Source: a virus. Taken from it: DNA of 44,041 nt. Below are positions 6,992 through 22,577 of the stretch, in pieces (within the stretch, counting starts at the first letter, position 1; each line of letters begins with the position of its first letter). The notes beneath the pieces are model-generated. The model was not told the DNA's origin, did not search any database, and was given only the letters and a program-made list of their open reading frames with translations. A program made the position numbers and the translations under genes. The stretch is from positions 1 to 44,041 of the IMG/VR virus record IMGVR_UViG_3300005515_000629; one strand, 5' to 3'.

Positions 6992-9969
6992 AGCGCAGCC
7001 GCCTCGGTCTTGAAACAGAACATGTCATACGTCAGGTTTGAACCGGGGCTCGATGCCAGACCCGCACCGACCGACAGGTACGAATATTTCTGGTTTCGAT
7101 AGGTTGTCTGAATGCCGCCCAGTTCAAGTGTGCCGTTTGCGAGGGTCGTGCTCGCGATGGAACTACCAACTTGCGCGGAGAAATTCCGCACAAACCCGAC
7201 CAGATTCGATGCCGTCCGAGTCGCAATCCAATCGCCGGAGGAGTCGGTGGTGCTAGTTGCTCCAGAGGCCGTCCCGCTGTTAAACCGACCAAATGGGAAA
7301 TTCGTTGAGCCTCGCGTTCTGAAGTTCGCGAGAGTGCCGTCACCGATAGAGCAATCTGCACTGGTATTGTCAGAGACGTTGCGTGCATTATCCAACGCGA
7401 TGTGCATTGAGTTCAATGTCCACAATCCGTCCGCGGCCGTCGTCGGATTGTAGGTGGACACCAGGGCGCCGGTCCCCAAGCAATCGAAGCCAGACCCCTT
7501 TGCCCAAGAGACCGTACCGACGATCGAGAAGTGATCGCCATTCCGCTTGATATTGCGAAGCGCGACATTCTGATCATAGCTTGCGTGAAGGAAGAAGCAC
7601 GACGATTGCGCGTACCATCCCCGTTGCTTCGCCATGAAGATAAGGCGGTTGTATGCTGCAAGCCAAGGCTGCGGAGGTGCCGCGAGCCCAGCCGCAAGCG
7701 TCGCGTTGAAGAACGAGAGTGTTTCGGCTTCCGGGATGAACAAGCCGCCAAACGCCAGGCGCATTGAATTCGCTGCGTCTGCCGCACAGAACGAGTTCGG
7801 GTGAATTCCGTCTACCGTCCGCACGTAGGGGTTTTTCCACAGCATGCTGTTCGCTGCCGTCATCGTCGCGGTAGCAAAATCAACATACTTGCCGGTTGCG
7901 ACGATGGACGCGTTGAAGGTCGGGACCTGCGCCGCGTTCGGACTTAGTGCTGTCTGGTTGCCCGTTGTTTTCCAGCTATCGGTTGACGTCGACATAGCAC
8001 CCAGCGCCATGCCGTAGATATTCGGAGCGTTGAACCAGCCATTGACCGTGGTCCAATCCGCGAACGCTTGAGCTGCGGTATGGGCGACGCGCGAGCCAAC
8101 GTCATTCGTTCCGAGAGCATTAAACAGGTGCGAATACGACGTGCCCAGCGACGTGATAAATGCGCGCGTCTTGGTATTCGATAACAGCAGATCGGCAGCA
8201 GCCAAGCCGCCGCGACCGATACGCACATAGGAGCAGATCGGATCAAGCATACGCGGGATCGGCCCCGTGCCGCCCTTGATCCCGACCGAAGTAATATCGC
8301 CTGTTCCCGCTGCGTTAATGCTATCGCCGAGAACGACGGCCTGCTTAGGTGACGGATGCGCAATGGTTCCGATGATGGCCGAGGGGGCGAACAATGCGGC
8401 CGTGGTCGTTTGGGCAGGGATCACGCCGGAATTGCCGAAGTCACCGGAGATAGAGCCGTTGATCACACCTACGGTGCTTGGCGCGACGAAGCAATCATGA
8501 AGTGCGATGGTGCCGCCGGAGTTCACCGCCGTGACAACCGTCCTAATCCAGTACTTGTCGCCGGCCTTGATCGTTAACCCGGCCGCATCTGTTATAAGCT
8601 GCCCGCCGTTGGGGATGATGCCGGTCGCGGCGCCGCTCATCAGAACCTGAGTAAACGTTCCTGACGGGTACTCCACAAAGCACTTGATGGTCGCGTCCGA
8701 GCCCTGGTTTAGCTCCGTGCCGCCGGTCGAGAAGGAGAGCCAGCCCAGATAGGTGATGGTGAAATTGGAAATGTCGCCTTGCGGGTCGGCGTAGTGCTCG
8801 CTGATGTAGGTGATCGGGAGCGTGCCAGTCAGGTTGCTCGACTGAGCCGAGTTCGTGAAAGTGCCATTGGCAACGATGACGTTGCTGGTCGACGTGCCAC
8901 TATAGGTCGCGGCGATCGACGGGAACGACATCGAGCCCGCGCCGGATGTCGGCTCAACACCGACCGCCAGACCGTTGAAGTACCATGCCGCATTGATCCG
9001 CCCCTGTGCGAGCAACCATGCATGGATCGGCTTCAGATCGATCGAAGTAACCACGCGATCTTGCAGATCGGTAGGCATGAAGATGATGTCGGGATATGCG
9101 CCGCTGTTCGCAGTGTCGTCGCGGGCAACCGTCCATGTAATGCCGTTGAGCGTAACCTGCCCGAGCTGAGCCCCGGTGATGCCAGATCCGATTGACGCCA
9201 CATAACTCTGGAAATACGCAGGAGCCGACAAGGCGATCTCAATCTCGACCTTGTGGTTTCCGACGCCATGAGCGTTCGCTGCATCGGTGAGGAAATAGTC
9301 GATGATGCAGACGTGGGAGTTCGCCGGGCTCGCCGAATGGCTCATATTGAGATCGAGCGATAGCGCAGTGATCGCGCTGATCTGACGCGCTGTGATTGGC
9401 GTCTGTGCGGACGTGTTAAAGTAATCACCGAAGCAAAGCTGATTGAACCCGATCGGAATACCCGGCGAGCGCGTTGGCCATGTCCAGTTCATGACGGTCC
9501 CGTTCGGGAACGTCGCCGGCTGCACGACTGCGCTGTCGCTGCCTGTCAGGACCAGCCCGGCCGCGTTATAGGGATTGAGATAGAGCGTCCAGTTACCAGA
9601 TTTGTAGTTCGTGAAATCCGGCACAGGGGTGCCAATGGCCCCCACCCCCCCAGAGACAGCAATCCGATTCAATTGCCCATATACGTCGGCACTGTAGCCG
9701 CCCCCGCCGGCCCCATAGAGACCATCGGCGAGGCGCAGGATCTGACCGTAGACATCGTTCGTATATGAGCCCGCGGCGATGCCGAGGCCAACATTGATAC
9801 GCTTCAGCTGGCCCAGGATGTCGTTGCTGTAGGCCGGCCCCGCCGGTGCGCCGACGGTATCGGCGATCCGCAGGATCTGCCCGTATTTATCATGGGAGTA
9901 GGTGTCCGCAGCGCCGGAAAGATCGGCGATCTGCAACAGCATCCCATAGATGTCGTTGGTGTACGGCAT
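6988..9969 (-). CDS. giant repeat / GH12-like / SGNH-hydrolase / LamG-like virion protein
   Basis: 993 aa. Five repeats of about 23 residues come first (1-113, core YGQLLRIAD). Residues about 118-358 resemble a GH12-type concanavalin-fold domain, ending NGLAVGVEPTSGAGSMSFPS; this is tentative. A beta-rich linker region follows. Residues about 540-735 are an SGNH/GDSL esterase-type domain with visible block I GDS (548-550), block III GTND (620-623) and block V DGIHPN (D720, H723), so Ser, Asp and His of the triad are present. The C-terminal part (about 770-990) is LamG-like. It probably binds or deacylates a host surface glycan. Its position between capsid and connector genes is unusual. Confidence 0.82.
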   Translation of the reverse strand: MPYTNDIYGMLLQIADLSGAADTYSHDKYGQILRIADTVGAPAGPAYSNDILGQLKRINVGLGIAAGSYTNDVYGQILRLADGLYGAGGGGYSADVYGQLNRIAVSGGVGAIGTPVPDFTNYKSGNWTLYLNPYNAAGLVLTGSDSAVVQPATFPNGTVMNWTWPTRSPGIPIGFNQLCFGDYFNTSAQTPITARQISAITALSLDLNMSHSASPANSHVCIIDYFLTDAANAHGVGNHKVEIEIALSAPAYFQSYVASIGSGITGAQLGQVTLNGITWTVARDDTANSGAYPDIIFMPTDLQDRVVTSIDLKPIHAWLLAQGRINAAWYFNGLAVGVEPTSGAGSMSFPSIAATYSGTSTSNVIVANGTFTNSAQSSNLTGTLPITYISEHYADPQGDISNFTITYLGWLSFSTGGTELNQGSDATIKCFVEYPSGTFTQVLMSGAATGIIPNGGQLITDAAGLTIKAGDKYWIRTVVTAVNSGGTIALHDCFVAPSTVGVINGSISGDFGNSGVIPAQTTTAALFAPSAIIGTIAHPSPKQAVVLGDSINAAGTGDITSVGIKGGTGPIPRMLDPICSYVRIGRGGLAAADLLLSNTKTRAFITSLGTSYSHLFNALGTNDVGSRVAHTAAQAFADWTTVNGWFNAPNIYGMALGAMSTSTDSWKTTGNQTALSPNAAQVPTFNASIVATGKYVDFATATMTAANSMLWKNPYVRTVDGIHPNSFCAADAANSMRLAFGGLFIPEAETLSFFNATLAAGLAAPPQPWLAAYNRLIFMAKQRGWYAQSSCFFLHASYDQNVALRNIKRNGDHFSIVGTVSWAKGSGFDCLGTGALVSTYNPTTAADGLWTLNSMHIALDNARNVSDNTSADCSIGDGTLANFRTRGSTNFPFGRFNSGTASGATSTTDSSGDWIATRTASNLVGFVRNFSAQVGSSIASTTLANGTLELGGIQTTYRNQKYSYLSVGAGLASSPGSNLTYDMFCFKTEAAAL
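9631..9969 (-). repeat. five tandem 22-23-codon repeats in the giant protein
   Basis: The encoded repeats start at residues 2-3, 24, 47, 69 and 92, each of the form Y-(T/S)-N-D-x-Y-G-Q-(L/I)-x-R-I-A-D followed by a Gly/Ala-rich turn. Copies 2 and 4 keep the full YGQILR core. The nucleotide copies differ at many third positions, so they are old repeats held at protein level. A likely role is oligomerisation or attachment of the protein to the virion. Confidence 0.85.
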
Positions 9970-16265: not shown

Positions 16266-18017
16266 CTAAGCTCCAAGCACAAGCAACCCGCGCGCGGCGG
16301 AATAAACCGATCCAGACGTATCGCCCTTCTCGGCGATGCCGAGGGCATCGACGACGGCGGCGATGAGATCGATGCGACCGCTCGACTTCGCCTTCGTCGG
16401 CTTGATATTCTCGGCTGCGTCCACTTCGACGGCGACCGACTGTGCATGGCGGCGAAACAGCGGATGCCCGCCATGATGGAAGCCGTTGCTCATCACCAGC
16501 CGCTCGAGCTCCTTCGAAGGCGCCGACAACGAAACGAACCCCTGCCCGAACAACACGACCGGAATGCCTTCCTGCTCCAGCCGAACCGCGGTGCCGGTGG
16601 CGTTGAACCGGTCGATGGCGAGTCCGCCTTCGTAAGGTTCACGCTTCGAATTGCCGTAATGGGCAATCCGGAATTTGGTCGCATCATCGAGGATCTGCTT
16701 CTCGATGAAGCTATAGTCGACCACATTGCCGGGTGTCGTGAACAAGGCACCTTCCTTGACCCAGCGCTCATAAGGCTGCCGGTCGCGCTTGCCGTGCTCC
16801 TTCACGAGATCGGCAGGCTTATAGGCGCGGCACAGCGCGACGGGAACATCAAGCCCTTCCTGAATCGGAAACCACCACACCAGGCCCGACAGATCCTGCG
16901 TTGACGACAGGTCGAGGCCGCCAAAGCACCGCTTGCCGAGCAGGCGCTGCTCGAACTCCGACTCGAATGGATGCTTGCCCTTGTCGCACCATGCGATCGG
17001 ACCGGCGCAGTGATCCCAACCAAAGCGCCTTCCATCGTCGTCGACCGAGTCCATCGGGAGCCAGCGCACGGCTTGGTCGGTCCAGATGTTCAGCCGGTAG
17101 CGCTTGAAGTCGTTCTCGAGCCGCGGCAGCTGCCGCGCGCGCCTGAAATCGGCCATGAACGGTTCGACCTTGACCGACTTGCCGAAGTTCGGGTTGGCCT
17201 TGCGCCAGGTCTCTTCCTCGGTCCAGTCGTCATCCTCGCCGGGGGCGTAGATGACCACCATCGTCTCGGGATCGTCGATGTCGCCGGCCAGGATGGCCTG
17301 ACATTCCTTGAACACCTCCTCGCCGTGGGTGCCCTTCTGCCCCGCGGTCGAGATCAGGAATTCCAGCGGCTGGCGCCGGGCTGCGGAGCTGTCATGCACG
17401 AACGTGTAGAGGTCACCGCTCGGCCATTCGTGGATCTCGTCACCGACGAGTCCAGACATGTTGAGGCCGTGCTTACCCTTCGGCTTTCCACTGAGCGGGC
17501 GAAACGACCCGTTCAATTCCGGGCAGTAGATCACCTTGCCCAGGCATTCGAGTTTCTGCGCCAGCACCGGCGTGCGCACCGCCATGTTGCTGGCCTTGGT
17601 GAACACGATCTTGGCCTGCGCCTCTTCCGAGGCGATTGAGAACACCTGCCCGCCCATCTCGGCGTCGCCAACCAGGATCAGCAGCGCAATGCCGGCAGCG
17701 AGCTCGGTCTTGCCGTTCTTGCGCGCGATCCAGACGAAGCAGCGGCGAAACCTTCGCGTGCCGTCCTTGCGCTTCCATCCGAACAGCGGCCGGACGATAT
17801 CATGCTCTTCCCACTCTTCGAGGACGAAGGGACGCCCGGCCCATTCGCCCTCGGTGAACACCAGATGGTTCGGGAAGAACGCCGCGGCCTTGTCGGCCGT
17901 GCGCTCGTCGTACCAGAACTCGCCTTCGCGCCAGAACTCTCCGTCCCAATACGCTTTCGGGAACGCCTTGAGAGCAGCCGGACGCGGCGGCTCGACCGTC
18001 TTACGCTGCACCGGCAT
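16266..18017 (-). CDS. terL: terminase large subunit
   Basis: 583 aa, the packaging motor. The ATPase domain has a Walker A variant ARKNGKT (98-104) and Walker B GLVGDEIHEW with D193 and E194. The C-terminal RuvC-like nuclease domain has the acidic residues D369 (GGLDLSS), D469 (LAIDRF) and D550 (SGRIDLIAA). This is the Terminase_1 family of HK97-like cos and pac phages. It overlaps the small subunit as TGATG. Confidence 0.96.
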   Translation of the reverse strand: MPVQRKTVEPPRPAALKAFPKAYWDGEFWREGEFWYDERTADKAAAFFPNHLVFTEGEWAGRPFVLEEWEEHDIVRPLFGWKRKDGTRRFRRCFVWIARKNGKTELAAGIALLILVGDAEMGGQVFSIASEEAQAKIVFTKASNMAVRTPVLAQKLECLGKVIYCPELNGSFRPLSGKPKGKHGLNMSGLVGDEIHEWPSGDLYTFVHDSSAARRQPLEFLISTAGQKGTHGEEVFKECQAILAGDIDDPETMVVIYAPGEDDDWTEEETWRKANPNFGKSVKVEPFMADFRRARQLPRLENDFKRYRLNIWTDQAVRWLPMDSVDDDGRRFGWDHCAGPIAWCDKGKHPFESEFEQRLLGKRCFGGLDLSSTQDLSGLVWWFPIQEGLDVPVALCRAYKPADLVKEHGKRDRQPYERWVKEGALFTTPGNVVDYSFIEKQILDDATKFRIAHYGNSKREPYEGGLAIDRFNATGTAVRLEQEGIPVVLFGQGFVSLSAPSKELERLVMSNGFHHGGHPLFRRHAQSVAVEVDAAENIKPTKAKSSGRIDLIAAVVDALGIAEKGDTSGSVYSAARGLLVLGA

Positions 18018-18586
18018 CAGTTCAACAGACCGATCGGCCCTTCAATCGGTTCGGCGGCGGGCGCCGCGGCAGCAGCCGGATCGCCTTCACGCGGCGCATC
18101 CTTGCCGGGCGCATTGCCGAACATGTCGCCGGTCGCGCCGGTGTTCGCACGCGCGGCCATGATGCGTTGGCGCTCGGCCGGGTTGAGGCCGAAGCGATCT
18201 TCGAAGGCCAGCATCATGCGGTCGAGGCGATCGGCCATCGTGAAAGCGGGATCCGCACGGCGAACCGTGCCGCTCGCGGTTTCGATCTCATAGAACTCGC
18301 CGCCAACATCGAGGCGCTTCTGCATGCCGAGCCAGCGGGCGTAGTGCTTGCAGTAGCGTGCGAAAGCCGGCACGTCCGTCTCGGTCAACAGCTTCATGCT
18401 GCGGAGCGTCGGCGCCATCTTCGAAAAGATCTTCAGCCCATCGCCCTTCAACCATGCCGGCGCCGCACCCGACGCAGCGGGCGCGCTCGGTTGTGCAGCC
18501 TTGGCCGTCTTGCGCGAGCGCGAGCGCACGGGCGCCTTCTGCTGTCTCACGCCTGCCGGCTGCGGCTTCGGTCCACGACGACCCAT
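18017..18586 (-). CDS. terS: terminase small subunit, P27 family
   Basis: 189 aa. It starts MGRRGPKPQPAGVRQQK, the standard opening of P27-type small terminases, followed by a basic, Ala-rich linker. The core helices contain LTETDVPAFARYCKHYARW and a LDRMMLAFEDRFGLNPAERQRI block. It recognises viral DNA for packaging. A GAGGAA ribosome site lies 8 nt before the ATG with an all-T spacer. Confidence 0.93.
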   Translation of the reverse strand: MGRRGPKPQPAGVRQQKAPVRSRSRKTAKAAQPSAPAASGAAPAWLKGDGLKIFSKMAPTLRSMKLLTETDVPAFARYCKHYARWLGMQKRLDVGGEFYEIETASGTVRRADPAFTMADRLDRMMLAFEDRFGLNPAERQRIMAARANTGATGDMFGNAPGKDAPREGDPAAAAAPAAEPIEGPIGLLN

Positions 18587-18690
18587 AAAAAAAATTCCTC
18601 GAAAACCCGCGAAAAATCGTTTGTTGTTTGGCCACCGGTCCCGGAAGGAAAGCGACCAAAGATTTTTACCCCCCTAGGGGCCTCAGCTCG
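18587..18690. other. candidate cos/packaging region
   Basis: The 79-nt gap between the HNH gene and terS holds an A/T run (18587-18600), and a 10-bp perfect palindrome CCCCTAGGGG (18671-18680) sits over the end of the HNH gene. In HK97-type phages the cos site commonly lies between the HNH endonuclease and terS. No nicking site can be assigned from sequence alone. Confidence 0.3.
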
Positions 18691-19073
18691 CGAGACAACT
18701 CGACCGCGATTTTGCTTTTCAAAGACAGTGAGGTCTTATCGATCAGACCCCGTGCCCACTGCCCCTCAAGCATCTGCTTGACTACGTCGTGGTGCCACCT
18801 GCATGCGCTCTGCCAGTTGGCCATGTCCCACATCAGGGCATCGTCGCCTTTGTGCGGGACGATGTGGTCAACCAGCTCAGCCGCAACGAACAGGCCAACT
18901 GCCTGACATCCGACGCATAGCGGGTTGCTGCGCTTATAGGCGGCCGCTTCCCTGTCCCACCGCGCAGTGTACCCGCGCTCCCTCGCGCTGCCCCTGCGGC
19001 CGTCGTACTCGGCAGTAGCTTCCCGCCTTGTACGCGCACCCTTGGGACGGAAGGTCGGAGGCCTAACTGGCAA
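18666..19073 (-). CDS. HNH endonuclease of the packaging module
   Basis: 135 aa from a TTG start; no ATG or GTG precedes the conserved MPVRPPTFRPKGARTRRE opening. Zinc ligands are C53/C56 (PLCVGC) and C91 with H94/H95 (CRWHHD); the catalytic His lies in ELVDHIVPHKGD (H70, H74). In HK97 and relatives an HNH protein next to the terminase genes is required for cos cleavage and packaging. It is the first gene after the stem-loop region. Confidence 0.88.
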   Translation of the reverse strand: MPVRPPTFRPKGARTRREATAEYDGRRGSARERGYTARWDREAAAYKRSNPLCVGCQAVGLFVAAELVDHIVPHKGDDALMWDMANWQSACRWHHDVVKQMLEGQWARGLIDKTSLSLKSKIAVELSRELRPLGG

Positions 19074-19090
19074 TCATCACCATGGAAAAT

Positions 19091-19133
19091 GGCCGCCGCC
19101 TGCACGATGCAGTCAATTGCAGGCGGCGTGGCC
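19091..19133 (-). other. strong stem-loop 18 nt before the HNH start
   Basis: GGCC plus GCCGCCTGCA (19091-19104) pairs with TGCAGGCGGC plus GGCC (19118-19127 and 19130-19133). This makes 14 bp with a 2-nt bulge and a 13-nt loop. On the minus strand it is followed by ATTTTCC, a weak U-tract. It could be a terminator or an antitermination target. Confidence 0.6.
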
Positions 19134-19210
19134 AAGTCTAAGGGAGGAAACGCCCAAGGAGGGCAGCGGCAACAGGGGCTAACCGGATGCCGCACACCCT
19201 ATGCAAACAA

Positions 19211-19241
19211 AAGCCCGACACGCTGTGCACGTGCCGGGCTT
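19211..19241 (-). terminator. probable intrinsic terminator after the NusG-like gene
   Basis: AAGCCCG-x-CACG pairs with CGTG-x-CGGGCTT around a 7-nt loop (one A/C mismatch, 11 pairs). Read on the minus strand the stem is followed directly by TTGTTTG, a U-rich run. This is the best intrinsic terminator in the window for minus-strand transcripts and would separate early from late genes. Confidence 0.65.
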
Positions 19242-19257
19242 GATGGGTGGTATGGCG

Positions 19258-19290
19258 AAACGGGTTTTCAGATAACCCGTTTTCCTTTTT
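19258..19290 (+). terminator. perfect 9-bp hairpin with plus-strand T-run
   Basis: AAACGGGTT (19258-19266) and AACCCGTTT (19274-19282) form a perfect stem with a 7-nt loop, followed by TCCTTTTT on the plus strand. As a terminator it would act on plus-strand transcripts, blocking antisense reading into the NusG-like gene. In the minus-strand RNA it is simply the first of three consecutive stem-loops. Confidence 0.55.
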
Positions 19291-19371
19291 GGACACATTG
19301 CCGAATTTGGTGAAGCATCAAATTTGCCTCGATGGGCGTCCGTTCCGGCGATCCACCTGATGTGGTCGGTA

Positions 19372-20034
19372 CTAGGACAGGCCCAAGGCGCGCATCAAGG
19401 TCTGATTCCGTCCCTCACTGTCAAGCTGTAGTACGTCATCGAAGGCGGACCATGCACGGGTAGTTATGATCTGCGCTCTCAGGTCGGCCTCGGTGATCAC
19501 CTTGGGCTTCGCTGCCTTGGCCTTCGCCTTGGCGCCCTTGCGGTTCTTCCAGCGCCGCTTTTTCTTCGACTTCGACTTCACCGGCTCAGGTTCGGGCTCC
19601 GGCTCGGGCTCGATGTCGATGATCACGGGGCGCTTCGAGTTTTCCATGGTGCGCACCACGTCGATCTCAGCATCAGTCAATGAGCCGACGATCTCGACAA
19701 CGCCTGGAATACTGCTGATGCATTGCCAGTGCTGGTCGCTGTACCACATGAAAACGAAAAGGTAGCCGGAGAACATCGGAACGCGGCGTTCGAGCTTGCG
19801 CCCGCGCCTGACGATCTCCTCTTCGACCTCAGGCACGTAGACGCCGAAGCGATGTTCCGCGAGCGCGTTGGCGACCGCAACTTGCTCGGACGCGAACACC
19901 TCAACAACAAACCATCTCGCATCCCTTCCAGCGACGATCTCTGCATGCCGCGGATTACGCGGTTCATGCGGCTTCACCAGTTCGGCACGGACCTCCGGCG
20001 ATAGCTTTTCCAGCTCCTCCGCGATCGGTTTCAT
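19372..20034 (-). CDS. NusG-like (NGN domain) transcription factor without KOW
   Basis: 220 aa. Residues about 39-118 form a NusG N-terminal domain: ARWFVVEVFASEQVAVANAL, then FGVYVPEVEEEIVRR, PMFSGYLFVFMW and SIPGVVEIVG. These are the RNA-polymerase-binding surface elements of NusG/RfaH. The usual C-terminal KOW domain is absent. Instead there is an acidic (EP)n spacer (142-151), a Lys/Arg-rich stretch (153-178) that may bind RNA, and a short tail. A GGAG ribosome site lies 8 nt before the ATG. Position at the early/late boundary, before a terminator and the terminase operon, suggests a late-gene antiterminator. Confidence 0.88.
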   Translation of the reverse strand: MKPIAEELEKLSPEVRAELVKPHEPRNPRHAEIVAGRDARWFVVEVFASEQVAVANALAEHRFGVYVPEVEEEIVRRGRKLERRVPMFSGYLFVFMWYSDQHWQCISSIPGVVEIVGSLTDAEIDVVRTMENSKRPVIIDIEPEPEPEPEPVKSKSKKKRRWKNRKGAKAKAKAAKPKVITEADLRAQIITTRAWSAFDDVLQLDSEGRNQTLMRALGLS

Positions 20035-20408
20035 TCAATAGCTCCAACATCTCGATTTTCCCTGTCGATTTGCTGGCCGTCAGTCCGCGAGAAACTGTAC
20101 CGATTGCGCACAGCTTCTCCGGGAGGATGATTGGGAGCTTGCCCAGAGCTCCTTCAATCCTCCCGGTTGTCCTTAAATTGTTGGTGTCATGAGGTTTTTA
20201 CTTTCATTTTGGGAGGATGGGAGGATTGGGAGGTTCTCTACGCATACATAAAGACTTTAAGTTTGTTGTTCACCGAGATGGCTACGCGCGCGCCCGCCCG
20301 CATGTGTATGCGGAAAGAAGCTCCCGAATTACCCGCAACCTCCCATCTTTAATAAATCCAACATGTTAAACCCGAATCGATTCTTCCCGTTTTGGGAGGA
20401 TGGGAGGA
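20035..20408. other. 374-nt non-coding repeat region, candidate origin and NusG leader
   Basis: No convincing gene on either strand. It holds eight copies of GGGAGG(A/T)T in both orientations, a large hairpin (20119-20166) and locally AT-rich stretches (about 20239-20270 and 20348-20370) against a GC-rich background. It lies between the replicative helicase gene and the NusG-like gene. Confidence 0.6.
20119..20166 (-). other. long hairpin in the NusG-like leader
   Basis: CCGGGAGGAT (20119-20128) pairs with ATCCTCCCGG (20157-20166). After a 5/4-nt internal loop, GGAGCT (20134-20139) pairs with AGCTCC (20147-20152), with a 7-nt terminal loop. Sixteen perfect pairs in total. It lies about 85 nt upstream of the NusG-like ATG and is built from an inverted pair of the GGGAGGAT repeat. 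Confidence 0.7.
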
Positions 20409-20409
20409 T
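20121..20409. repeat. GGGAGGAT repeat array (iteron-like)
   Basis: GGGAGGAT occurs at 20121-20128, 20211-20218, 20219-20226, 20394-20401 and 20402-20409, with its complement at 20157-20164. GGGAGGTT occurs at 20228-20235 and, complemented, at 20337-20344. A 20-bp element TTTTGGGAGGATGGGAGGAT is repeated exactly at 20207-20226 and 20390-20409, the second copy touching the helicase stop codon. They could be initiator-binding iterons like those of P4-type replicons, or sites for a transcription factor. Confidence 0.7.
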
Positions 20410-22577
20410 CAGATCTCGTCATCGCCCGCGCTTTCACCATTATCGCCACTGCCTGACACCCGAATTGGGTTGCCTTGTGCGTCGACGAAGTCGTTCACCG
20501 ACTTGATCAGCTTGATGTCGAGCCACCAGACGACGTCGCTTTGCTTGCGCTCGTAGCCGCGCTCATCCATTGCGAGAGAGAAGCCGCGGTTTTTCCACGG
20601 CGTCTCGCCGGATGATTTGCACCAGGCCTCATAGACCTGATGCAGCACCGACGATTGCACGCGATGCCCGGGCTCCTTCACAGTACAGTTCTCGAGGAAG
20701 CGACCCAGCACGTCGGATGTCGCGAAATATTTCGCCGTCGCGTCAGTCACTTCTTTCGGTTCTGTGAGGCCACCCCTATCGATCCAGGACCGCAGACCAT
20801 CCAGCATCCAGTTGAGAATTCCGCTCGCCTCTGCTTTGAGCTTGCTGGCTAGTTGCATGTCGCGCTCCTCCTTTGGAATGGTCACGTTGAAGGGGACGAG
20901 CAGCAGCCGGCTCTTGATGCCCTCGTCGGTCCCGGACAACAGCGGCTTGTAATTGCCTTGGATCGTCAGTTTGAACTCGGGCAGGAAGGTGAACATGTCG
21001 CCTTGCAGATGCCGCGCATCCATCGGCTCACCGCCGGTGACCAGCTTGATTAGCGCCTCTGCCAGTTTCGCGTTTTTCTCCGGCTCCGATGTCCGCAGCA
21101 ATCGAACGCCAGGCAGCTTCGCAAGATCGGGCGTTGCCTGTCCTCCGCTGCGTGATTTGCCGGCATCGAGGAACGTCTCGATCGGGACACTCTGCGCATA
21201 GTCGCCGGCGACATAAGAAACCGCGTTGACCAGCACCGATTTGCCGTTGCGGCCCTTGCCGTAGAGGAAGGTGAGCTTGTGGGCGGAGGTGTCGCCGGTG
21301 AGCGACAGGCCGAACCATTGCTGCAGGAATAGCCGCGTGTCCGGGTCCGGCTGGACGCGCAGCAGGAACTTTTGGAATTCGGGCGCTTCCGCTAAGGGAT
21401 CATAATCGACCGGAGACACCTTGGTGATCATGTCCGCGGGATCATGGGGGCGGAATTCGACGTAGTCGCCATCGTCGCGCTTGCGAACGACCAACGTGCC
21501 GTTGTTAACGTTGATCTTCATCGGATCGGCGTCGATCTGGCCAATACCGACCGAGAAATACGGTGCGCCGCGCTTGGACAGTGCTCCGAGCTTTTGCGCG
21601 GACTCCGACGTCCGGCCCCATTTGGCGATCTTTTCGGAGTAGAGCACGACGGTATCGTCGCGCTTGACCTCGACCGCGAAGTCACACGCACCAACGGCGG
21701 GCTCAAGCACATCCTTCCGGCCGGACTCGGCGATGCAGTCCGCCTCCTCCTGGATGGCGCGAACGGTTTCGTGCTCGGCGATCATCACCCGCTCGGCGCC
21801 GCTTTCGCTGGACCAGCGCCGCGCGTCCCAAGCAAGCCAGCCGCGTTGCCGACCAGGCGATGTCGTGGCGAGCGCGGTGAGGAACAGAAGCTTGCCGCGC
21901 TGGCGCTCGCGAAAGCGCTCGGCGTTGCCGAGATCCGTCAACGGAAAGAACGCCAAGCGACGATGCAGCGCATCCGGCACCGCGTCGGGCGCGCGCGTCC
22001 CCGCTCCCCCTGTAGACGTAGAAGCTTCCGGCCAATCTCCCATTTGGGAGGTTGGGTCCTCGTCGCCCCCTACGGGGGGCGCGGGGGCGGCCGGGAAGGA
22101 CGACGGCAGCAACGCGGCCTCGGGGTTCGGCGGATCAGTGGGAAGGGTCGTGTGGTCGCCCGCCTCTCGCGGGCGCCCATCCTCATGAGGTGCTCCAAGC
22201 GCCGCTGAAGCGGCGCGTCGCACCTCGATCAGATCCCGGGGCGACTTCCTGCCCAGCTTCAGGCCGGCGGCGATCGCGCTCTTGACGGCCTTCGCGCCAA
22301 GGTCGCGGATCAGGCCACAGCCTGCGGCCGCCTCCTCGAGCGAAGCCTTGGCAAAGGCCTCGACGATCGCGCCGGCGCCGACCAGCTGGCCGAGCTGCTC
22401 GGCGATCGCGGAGAGCAGCAGCGCCCTGCCATCGCCTTCGGCCGCGCGGATCTGCGCCAGGCCAGCGTTCAGCTGCTCGAGTCCAAACTTGCGCTCGGCC
22501 TGGGCGAGTGTTGCGGGATCGACGTCGACGAACGCGGGGGCGTTGTCGACCAGGTCAAGGACGGCTTCGAGGGTCAT
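20409..22577 (-). CDS. SF3 helicase, phage D5/P4-alpha type
   Basis: 722 aa from the ATG at 22577, which overlaps the preceding stop as ATGA. Residues 1-200 are helical and then a Pro/Ala-rich linker. The D5-N-like region covers about 205-420. The SF3 ATPase has Walker A GKGRNGKS (440-447), a Walker B-type LLRTSEPE (493-500), a sensor-type QGNYKPLLSGTDEGI and the PFNVTIPKEERD block. A C-terminal winged-helix-like part follows. It unwinds DNA at the phage origin. The primase part is a separate gene upstream. Confidence 0.92.
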   Translation of the reverse strand: MTLEAVLDLVDNAPAFVDVDPATLAQAERKFGLEQLNAGLAQIRAAEGDGRALLLSAIAEQLGQLVGAGAIVEAFAKASLEEAAAGCGLIRDLGAKAVKSAIAAGLKLGRKSPRDLIEVRRAASAALGAPHEDGRPREAGDHTTLPTDPPNPEAALLPSSFPAAPAPPVGGDEDPTSQMGDWPEASTSTGGAGTRAPDAVPDALHRRLAFFPLTDLGNAERFRERQRGKLLFLTALATTSPGRQRGWLAWDARRWSSESGAERVMIAEHETVRAIQEEADCIAESGRKDVLEPAVGACDFAVEVKRDDTVVLYSEKIAKWGRTSESAQKLGALSKRGAPYFSVGIGQIDADPMKINVNNGTLVVRKRDDGDYVEFRPHDPADMITKVSPVDYDPLAEAPEFQKFLLRVQPDPDTRLFLQQWFGLSLTGDTSAHKLTFLYGKGRNGKSVLVNAVSYVAGDYAQSVPIETFLDAGKSRSGGQATPDLAKLPGVRLLRTSEPEKNAKLAEALIKLVTGGEPMDARHLQGDMFTFLPEFKLTIQGNYKPLLSGTDEGIKSRLLLVPFNVTIPKEERDMQLASKLKAEASGILNWMLDGLRSWIDRGGLTEPKEVTDATAKYFATSDVLGRFLENCTVKEPGHRVQSSVLHQVYEAWCKSSGETPWKNRGFSLAMDERGYERKQSDVVWWLDIKLIKSVNDFVDAQGNPIRVSGSGDNGESAGDDEI

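Follow-up and report, generated by a model that had tools for sequence, protein, structure and literature searches.

Where the early genes of a Bradyrhizobium-type prophage give way to the late ones we find a putative late switch, in which RNA polymerase modified by an NGN-domain NusG paralogue would pass two terminator-like hairpins (T1 and T2), and a small RNA of the alphaR8 family would probably be gated by the same read-through. We lean towards this model, if only slightly. In sequence comparison, the NGN gene, a terminator and the late genes follow one another in the same order across dozens of divergent phages.

Gene order and the NGN protein

The window, that is, the whole stretch of 44,041 nt analysed here, is an IMG/VR virus record (IMGVR_UViG_3300005515_000629) which we read as a Bradyrhizobium-type prophage. 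According to Pfam and PHROG scans, the early minus-strand genes upstream of the NGN gene (19372–20034, minus strand) encode a ParB-like protein, a methylase, a primase and a D5-like helicase; the integrase gene, on the opposite strand at the far end of the window, is also on this early side. Downstream come the first late gene, encoding an HNH endonuclease (18666–19073, TTG start), and the genes for the terminase small (18017–18586) and large (16266–18017) subunits, all on the minus strand, followed by those for the portal, protease, capsid and tape measure proteins. This layout agrees with a sequence-only reading of the same DNA, made without database searches, in which the NGN gene was taken to be the last early gene. 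Between the helicase and NGN genes, GGGAGGAT occurs six times (20121–20409) and nowhere else in the window, with 1.6 occurrences expected in the whole window; these repeats are possible origin iterons, or possible sites complementary to the alphaR8 10-mer described below.

The 220-aa product of the NGN gene matches the Pfam NusG/NGN family PF02357 (residues 40–118, E 1.4e-15, 58 bits against a cut-off of 22.2) and PHROG 6386, annotated as 'transcription antiterminator'. AlphaFold confidently predicts an NGN fold for residues 39–134 (pLDDT mostly >80), and the best Foldseek matches of this predicted fold are NusG and RfaH, including RfaH–ops complexes. All four methods agree with the NGN domain proposed earlier, and the paralogue would bind RNA polymerase and alter termination. 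The acidic EP spacer and Lys/Arg-rich stretch of the same proposal are likewise present, as an EP-rich linker and the basic stretch KKKRRWKNRK, and the basic and acidic tail is conserved within the window's own NGN family. The description of the protein as KOW-less holds for Pfam, which gives no match, and for the predicted fold, in which the tail consists of disorder and short helices; in a profile comparison by hhalign, however, the alignment covers the final ~40 residues and places them on the KOW region of relatives, so that this part of the protein may be a decayed KOW rather than an absent one. Outside the window's family, the aligned tails of most relatives are KOW-like, with 7 of 42 members reaching E 0.01 for Pfam KOW.

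Hairpins between the NGN and HNH genes

The 303-nt intergenic region, which folds better than shuffled sequences (z −4.7), carries on the minus strand, from 5′ to 3′ after the NGN stop codon, a nested stem, a hairpin seen in the window only, T1, the box ATAGGGTGT, the alphaR8 5′ stem, the alphaR8 core hairpin with its 10-mer, and T2, beyond which the HNH gene begins. T1 (19206–19241, minus strand), which stands where the early operon ends and is an intrinsic-terminator-like hairpin followed by a T-tract, is one of two terminator-like calls on the minus strand, the other being inside the HNH gene. Since the terminator scan of the window alone is not above chance (3 found against 2.5 expected), the significance of the region derives from comparative evidence. 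The HNH start codon lies 18 nt past the T2 stem, leaving little room for a promoter there in the window.

The nested stem belongs to a conserved post-stop element (19288–19349, minus strand), in which an outer stem (19349–19344/19305–19300) encloses an inner hairpin (19330–19325/19317–19312) and is followed by CAATGTGTCCAAA (TGTGYCCAAAGC in relatives). The window's NGN family has a hairpin GAAGC...GCTTC and then TGTGYCCAAAGC upstream of T1. Across 19 hand-cut sequences, pairing in the inner 6-bp helix amounts to 97.4%, and none of 500 shuffles attains its covariation score, a control that leaves relatedness in; we regard the element as a candidate recognition site for the window's NGN family. 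The motif GCGAAGC lies between the NGN stop codon and T1 in 15 of 57 NGN clusters (2.4 expected; maximum of 8 in 200 samplings), an enrichment that stays a lead because it was examined only after being noticed.

Three consecutive stem-loops had been seen in this region from the sequence alone, and all are present, at 19257–19283, 19211–19241 and 19091–19133. The hairpin AAAACGGG...CCCGTTT (19257–19283, minus strand), however, is absent from the relatives read and is therefore not part of a conserved signal, whereas the third forms the 3′ end of alphaR8. That reading had overlooked the nested stem behind the stop codon, as well as the 5′ stem and hairpin of alphaR8.

Several further arrangements were observed at related loci. 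A conserved block of ~75 nt, GCTGTCCGAC...GGAGCGGACAGC, with an 8-bp stem, lies between the post-stop element and T1 in L005, L007, L117, L148 and partly L042. Tandem T1 units (L042, L045, L058, L114, L118, L133, L134; L209) have between them a Shine-Dalgarno-like stretch and, behind it, a start-stop ATGTGA, ATGTAA or ATGTAG. A minigene reading of GTGCGGTAG was rejected since its stop is not conserved. In L008 (6627–7250), which shares a contig with L038, the NGN gene is succeeded by an extra ORF and then by a second copy of the NGN 3′ end and leader, a pattern that suggests insertion with duplication.

An alphaR8 small RNA in the late leader

The Rfam covariance model RF00519 (alphaR8; suhB/mmgR) matches positions 19079–19171 of the minus strand with 47.5 bits against a gathering score of 41. 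The core comprises the hairpin GCCCUCCUUGGGC and the anti-Shine-Dalgarno 10-mer UUUCCUCCCU at 19150–19141 (hairpin and 10-mer together, 19164–19141), and then the 3′ hairpin, which is T2 (19084–19133, minus strand) and stands directly before the late operon with a weak tail, AUUUUCC. Some alphaR8 RNAs are Hfq-associated and carry an anti-Shine-Dalgarno 10-mer (PMC12559287, PMC7143759). With up to one mismatch allowed, the complement of the 10-mer has a single match in the window, which is the antisense of the 10-mer itself, and hence no phage target was found.

The 5′ stem of the RNA (GCGGCATC...GTTGCCGC; 19166–19193, minus strand) is shared with Bradyrhizobium chromosomal alphaR8 copies, which have a CATATT hexamer at −10 spacing. 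In NGN-linked loci the stem stays paired despite many sequence changes, which supports transcription through it. The stretch GCGGTAGC in relatives, considered as an ops element, was dropped as it is the alphaR8 5′ stem and is present in chromosomal copies without NGN.

Several copies of alphaR8 occur in each of two Bradyrhizobium genomes, with six in B. viridifuturi SEMIA 690 and eight in B. erythrophlei GAS478; several of the latter share a common TTGAGC/TTAGAT promoter-like pair and have no adjacent NGN. In two other phages (L010 and L017), alphaR8 is located just upstream of the major head protein gene.

A terminator apparently in place of the alphaR8 promoter

We compared 115 distinct alphaR8 loci, of which 57 have an NGN gene adjacent upstream and 50 do not, the remaining 8 being unclear. 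A T1-type hairpin with a T-tract abuts the 5′ stem of the RNA in 53 of the 57 NGN-linked loci and in 11 of the 50 others (Fisher p 1e-14). The distribution is the opposite for sequences that match a promoter at 8/12 or better (1/57 against 13/50, Fisher p 2e-4), and NGN-linked loci have weaker T2 U-tracts (Mann-Whitney p about 1e-4); these p-values are descriptive, because the T1, promoter and box criteria were set after the data had been seen and related loci, not down-weighted, are counted as independent in the Fisher tests. By eye, three of the four T1 misses in the NGN-linked class are T1, and several of the 11 calls at the other loci look like chance or terminators of upstream genes. At NGN-linked loci T1 occupies the same place with differing stem sequences.

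In the window, T1 occupies the −35 site of alphaR8, and a degenerate −10-like hexamer (TTGCAT) remains at the right spacing, ~7 nt before the 5′ stem. The box ATAGGGTGT (19194–19203, minus strand) sits between T1 and this stem, at the spacing at which, in promoter-driven copies, the −10 element ends and the discriminator lies. Considered as a sigma-70 −10 element, the box (TAGGKT) was judged weak, and a start from it would cut into the 5′ stem. No sigma-70 match was found in 18500–20500 with a simple consensus, which is a poor guide to alphaproteobacterial promoters; Caulobacter alphaR8 paralogues have no common promoter motif (PMC12559287, PMC7143759). These comparisons suggest that T1 has taken the place of the alphaR8 promoter in NGN-linked phages.

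Recurrence across phages

Searching with the exact alphaR8 core pattern yielded 110 viral stretches. An NGN gene is found in 43 of the 80 listed of these 110, in all 43 on the same strand as alphaR8, and in 35 of the 43 the RNA lies 370–1330 nt downstream of the NGN domain. In the other eight, it is either upstream of NGN (G005, G033, G036 and G076) or 2.7–25 kb downstream.

As this set had been chosen by the RNA, we also took a set chosen by NGN, which overlaps with the former and is centred on the window's own NGN family. The alphaR8 10-mer is present within 800 nt downstream in 22 of its 33 loci and in none of the antisense or upstream controls (0 and 0), and 24 of the 33 match a simple pattern of T1 and the TAGG box after NGN. 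A comparison of this kind, asking if the NGN gene and the stem-loops always occur together, had been proposed with the sequence-only reading. When both sets are pooled, the NGN proteins form 57 clusters at 60% identity, 41 of which have the 10-mer within 700 nt. No T1 is seen in some NGN phages (L120, L121). Scans of the collection with two KOW-bearing NGN proteins returned close relatives only, and a diverse NGN alignment (A2) was dropped as a scan query, being too divergent.

The first downstream ORF, picked mechanically with one per locus, matches an HNH family in 24 of 55 NGN-linked loci and a terminase small subunit family in 16 (a family that partly overlaps the HNH families), the remainder including terminase large subunit, neck or tail families; at 29 non-NGN viral alphaR8 loci, the downstream ORFs are mixed.

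The same order is found in two Bradyrhizobium phages, ppBeUSDA76-1 (B. elkanii USDA 76) and ppBdUSDA122-1 (B. diazoefficiens USDA 122), both reported to be spontaneously produced siphophages (PMC10127595). The NGN protein of ppBdUSDA122-1 scores just under the Pfam cut-off and matches the phage-NGN profile at 9e-43. Both records label the NGN gene otherwise, either as an ABC transporter substrate-binding protein or as a hypothetical protein, so that genes of this kind are easily overlooked.

A model of the late switch and its alternatives

From the sequences, we infer NGN antitermination, an NGN loading site, and the production, function and targets of the RNA as follows. Early minus-strand transcription would run through the primase, helicase and NGN genes and stop at T1. 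Once accumulated, the NGN paralogue would join RNA polymerase, probably helped by the post-stop hairpin element, and the NGN-bearing polymerase would then pass T1 and the weaker T2 into the HNH, terminase and structural genes. The alphaR8 RNA would be made mainly by polymerases that have passed T1, given that its own promoter has seemingly been lost to T1, and would be set free either by processing or through termination at T2. The late genes and the RNA would thus come on together, and with the onset of late expression the 10-mer would repress mRNAs of the host or of the early phase. Several observations count against the model: a third of the NGN-first loci have no 10-mer, T1 is missing from some NGN phages, the alphaR8 tail of the window is weak, and the −10-like hexamer persists at promoter spacing.

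The main rival, which we judge rather unlikely, resembles the pR′ region of lambda and StxS: alphaR8 would have a weak or unusual promoter at ~19194–19210, be transcribed constitutively and stop at T2, with T1 merely ending the early operon and NGN helping polymerases that start at the alphaR8 promoter past T2. StxS is indeed a known sRNA made from a late promoter and an early terminator (PMC7873438), and the spacing from TTGCAT to the 5′ stem is the same as in promoter-driven copies such as L171; against this, there is no −35-like match, T1 fills the site in 53 of the 57 NGN-linked loci, and the weak T2 U-tract might leak without NGN. It is less probable still that NGN and alphaR8 are unrelated neighbours, T1 being a plain early terminator, the late promoter lying elsewhere and NGN acting as a general elongation factor. 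Such independence would fit the 37 of the 80 listed viral alphaR8 records with no NGN detected (some are short fragments), the chromosomal copies, and the 11 of 33 NGN-first loci without the 10-mer, but not the bias in strand and adjacency across divergent NGN clusters, the concentration of the terminator-for-promoter contrast in NGN-linked loci, or the little promoter room between T2 and the HNH start in the window.

The sequence-only reading had itself suggested late antitermination by a NusG paralogue. Whereas this general idea is favoured by the recurrent order and the scarcity of promoter room, its specific mechanism, with the Lys/Arg-rich tail standing in for KOW and the three stem-loops being the antitermination signal to which it binds, is not supported and appears very improbable: the hairpins exist and the tail is conserved in the window's family, but one hairpin is window-specific, KOW-like tails are the rule among NGN proteins that share the layout, and the third stem is part of an sRNA family that host chromosomes also encode without NGN. 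We give hardly any credence to attenuation without NGN, whereby alphaR8 in the leader would control HNH translation or T2 read-through via Hfq or ribosomes; an anti-Shine-Dalgarno 10-mer just upstream of the first late gene speaks for it, yet the distance to the first downstream ORF varies widely, and the NGN link and the exchange of promoter for T1 are left unexplained.

Relation to known systems

The closest mechanistic precedent for the NGN late switch, an experimental one, is LoaP of Bacillus velezensis, a NusG paralogue acting at the dfn and mln leaders, where a hairpin precedes an intrinsic terminator and several terminators are read through (PMC12691694). The phage locus differs in its position at the early/late boundary, with the NGN gene immediately upstream of its presumed target, and in its embedded sRNA and different hairpin; in the window's NGN family, the covarying hairpin that precedes T1 is a candidate recognition site, and its loop is not UNCG. 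RfaH shares the NGN fold, whereas in the window KOW is absent or decayed, and the GCGGTAG of relatives is the alphaR8 5′ stem, also found in chromosomal copies without NGN; the window has a single one-mismatch ops match, at 7644 on the plus strand (2.6 expected).

The phage RNA resembles other alphaR8 sRNAs (MmgR, SisA-D; suhB, RF00519) in its core hairpin, UUUCCUCCCU, 3′ hairpin and score above gathering, and departs from them in having a terminator for a promoter region, a weaker U-tract and a place in a phage late leader. As in lambda Q and StxS of Stx phages, the late-operon leader would combine a short sRNA with an antitermination site (StxS, PMC7873438), but the window has no recognisable constitutive late promoter and its sRNA is of a host family; no Q-family protein was matched among the window proteins scanned, a subset of the ORFs. 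phiLM21-like Sinorhizobium prophages also have a NusG-type antiterminator at the early/late boundary and a terminator before the structural genes (PMC12429752), and phi2LM21 and phi3LM21 have NGN and a terminator, with no alphaR8 in the two stretches read.

In the literature searched for an NGN–alphaR8 link, phage NusG late antitermination and phage alphaR8, the link is not described. We consider it possible, though on balance somewhat doubtful, that the arrangement represents a widespread alphaproteobacterial module, in which the sRNA promoter has given way to a terminator and both the sRNA and the late operon are gated by the upstream NusG paralogue, NGN being recruited, perhaps in several families, by GCGAAGC/GCGAAAGC or by a family-specific hairpin between the stop codon and T1.

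What is known of late antitermination comes mainly from lambdoid phages, and, to our knowledge, late-gene activation in alphaproteobacterial temperate phages is poorly known. The model can be tested directly in the two Bradyrhizobium phages that share this layout and are spontaneously produced. If it is true, a NusG paralogue would be a common solution for the late switch in alphaproteobacterial temperate phages, and a conserved host sRNA family would have been drawn into this switch, which would account for some of the additional alphaR8 copies that rhizobia carry in their genomes.
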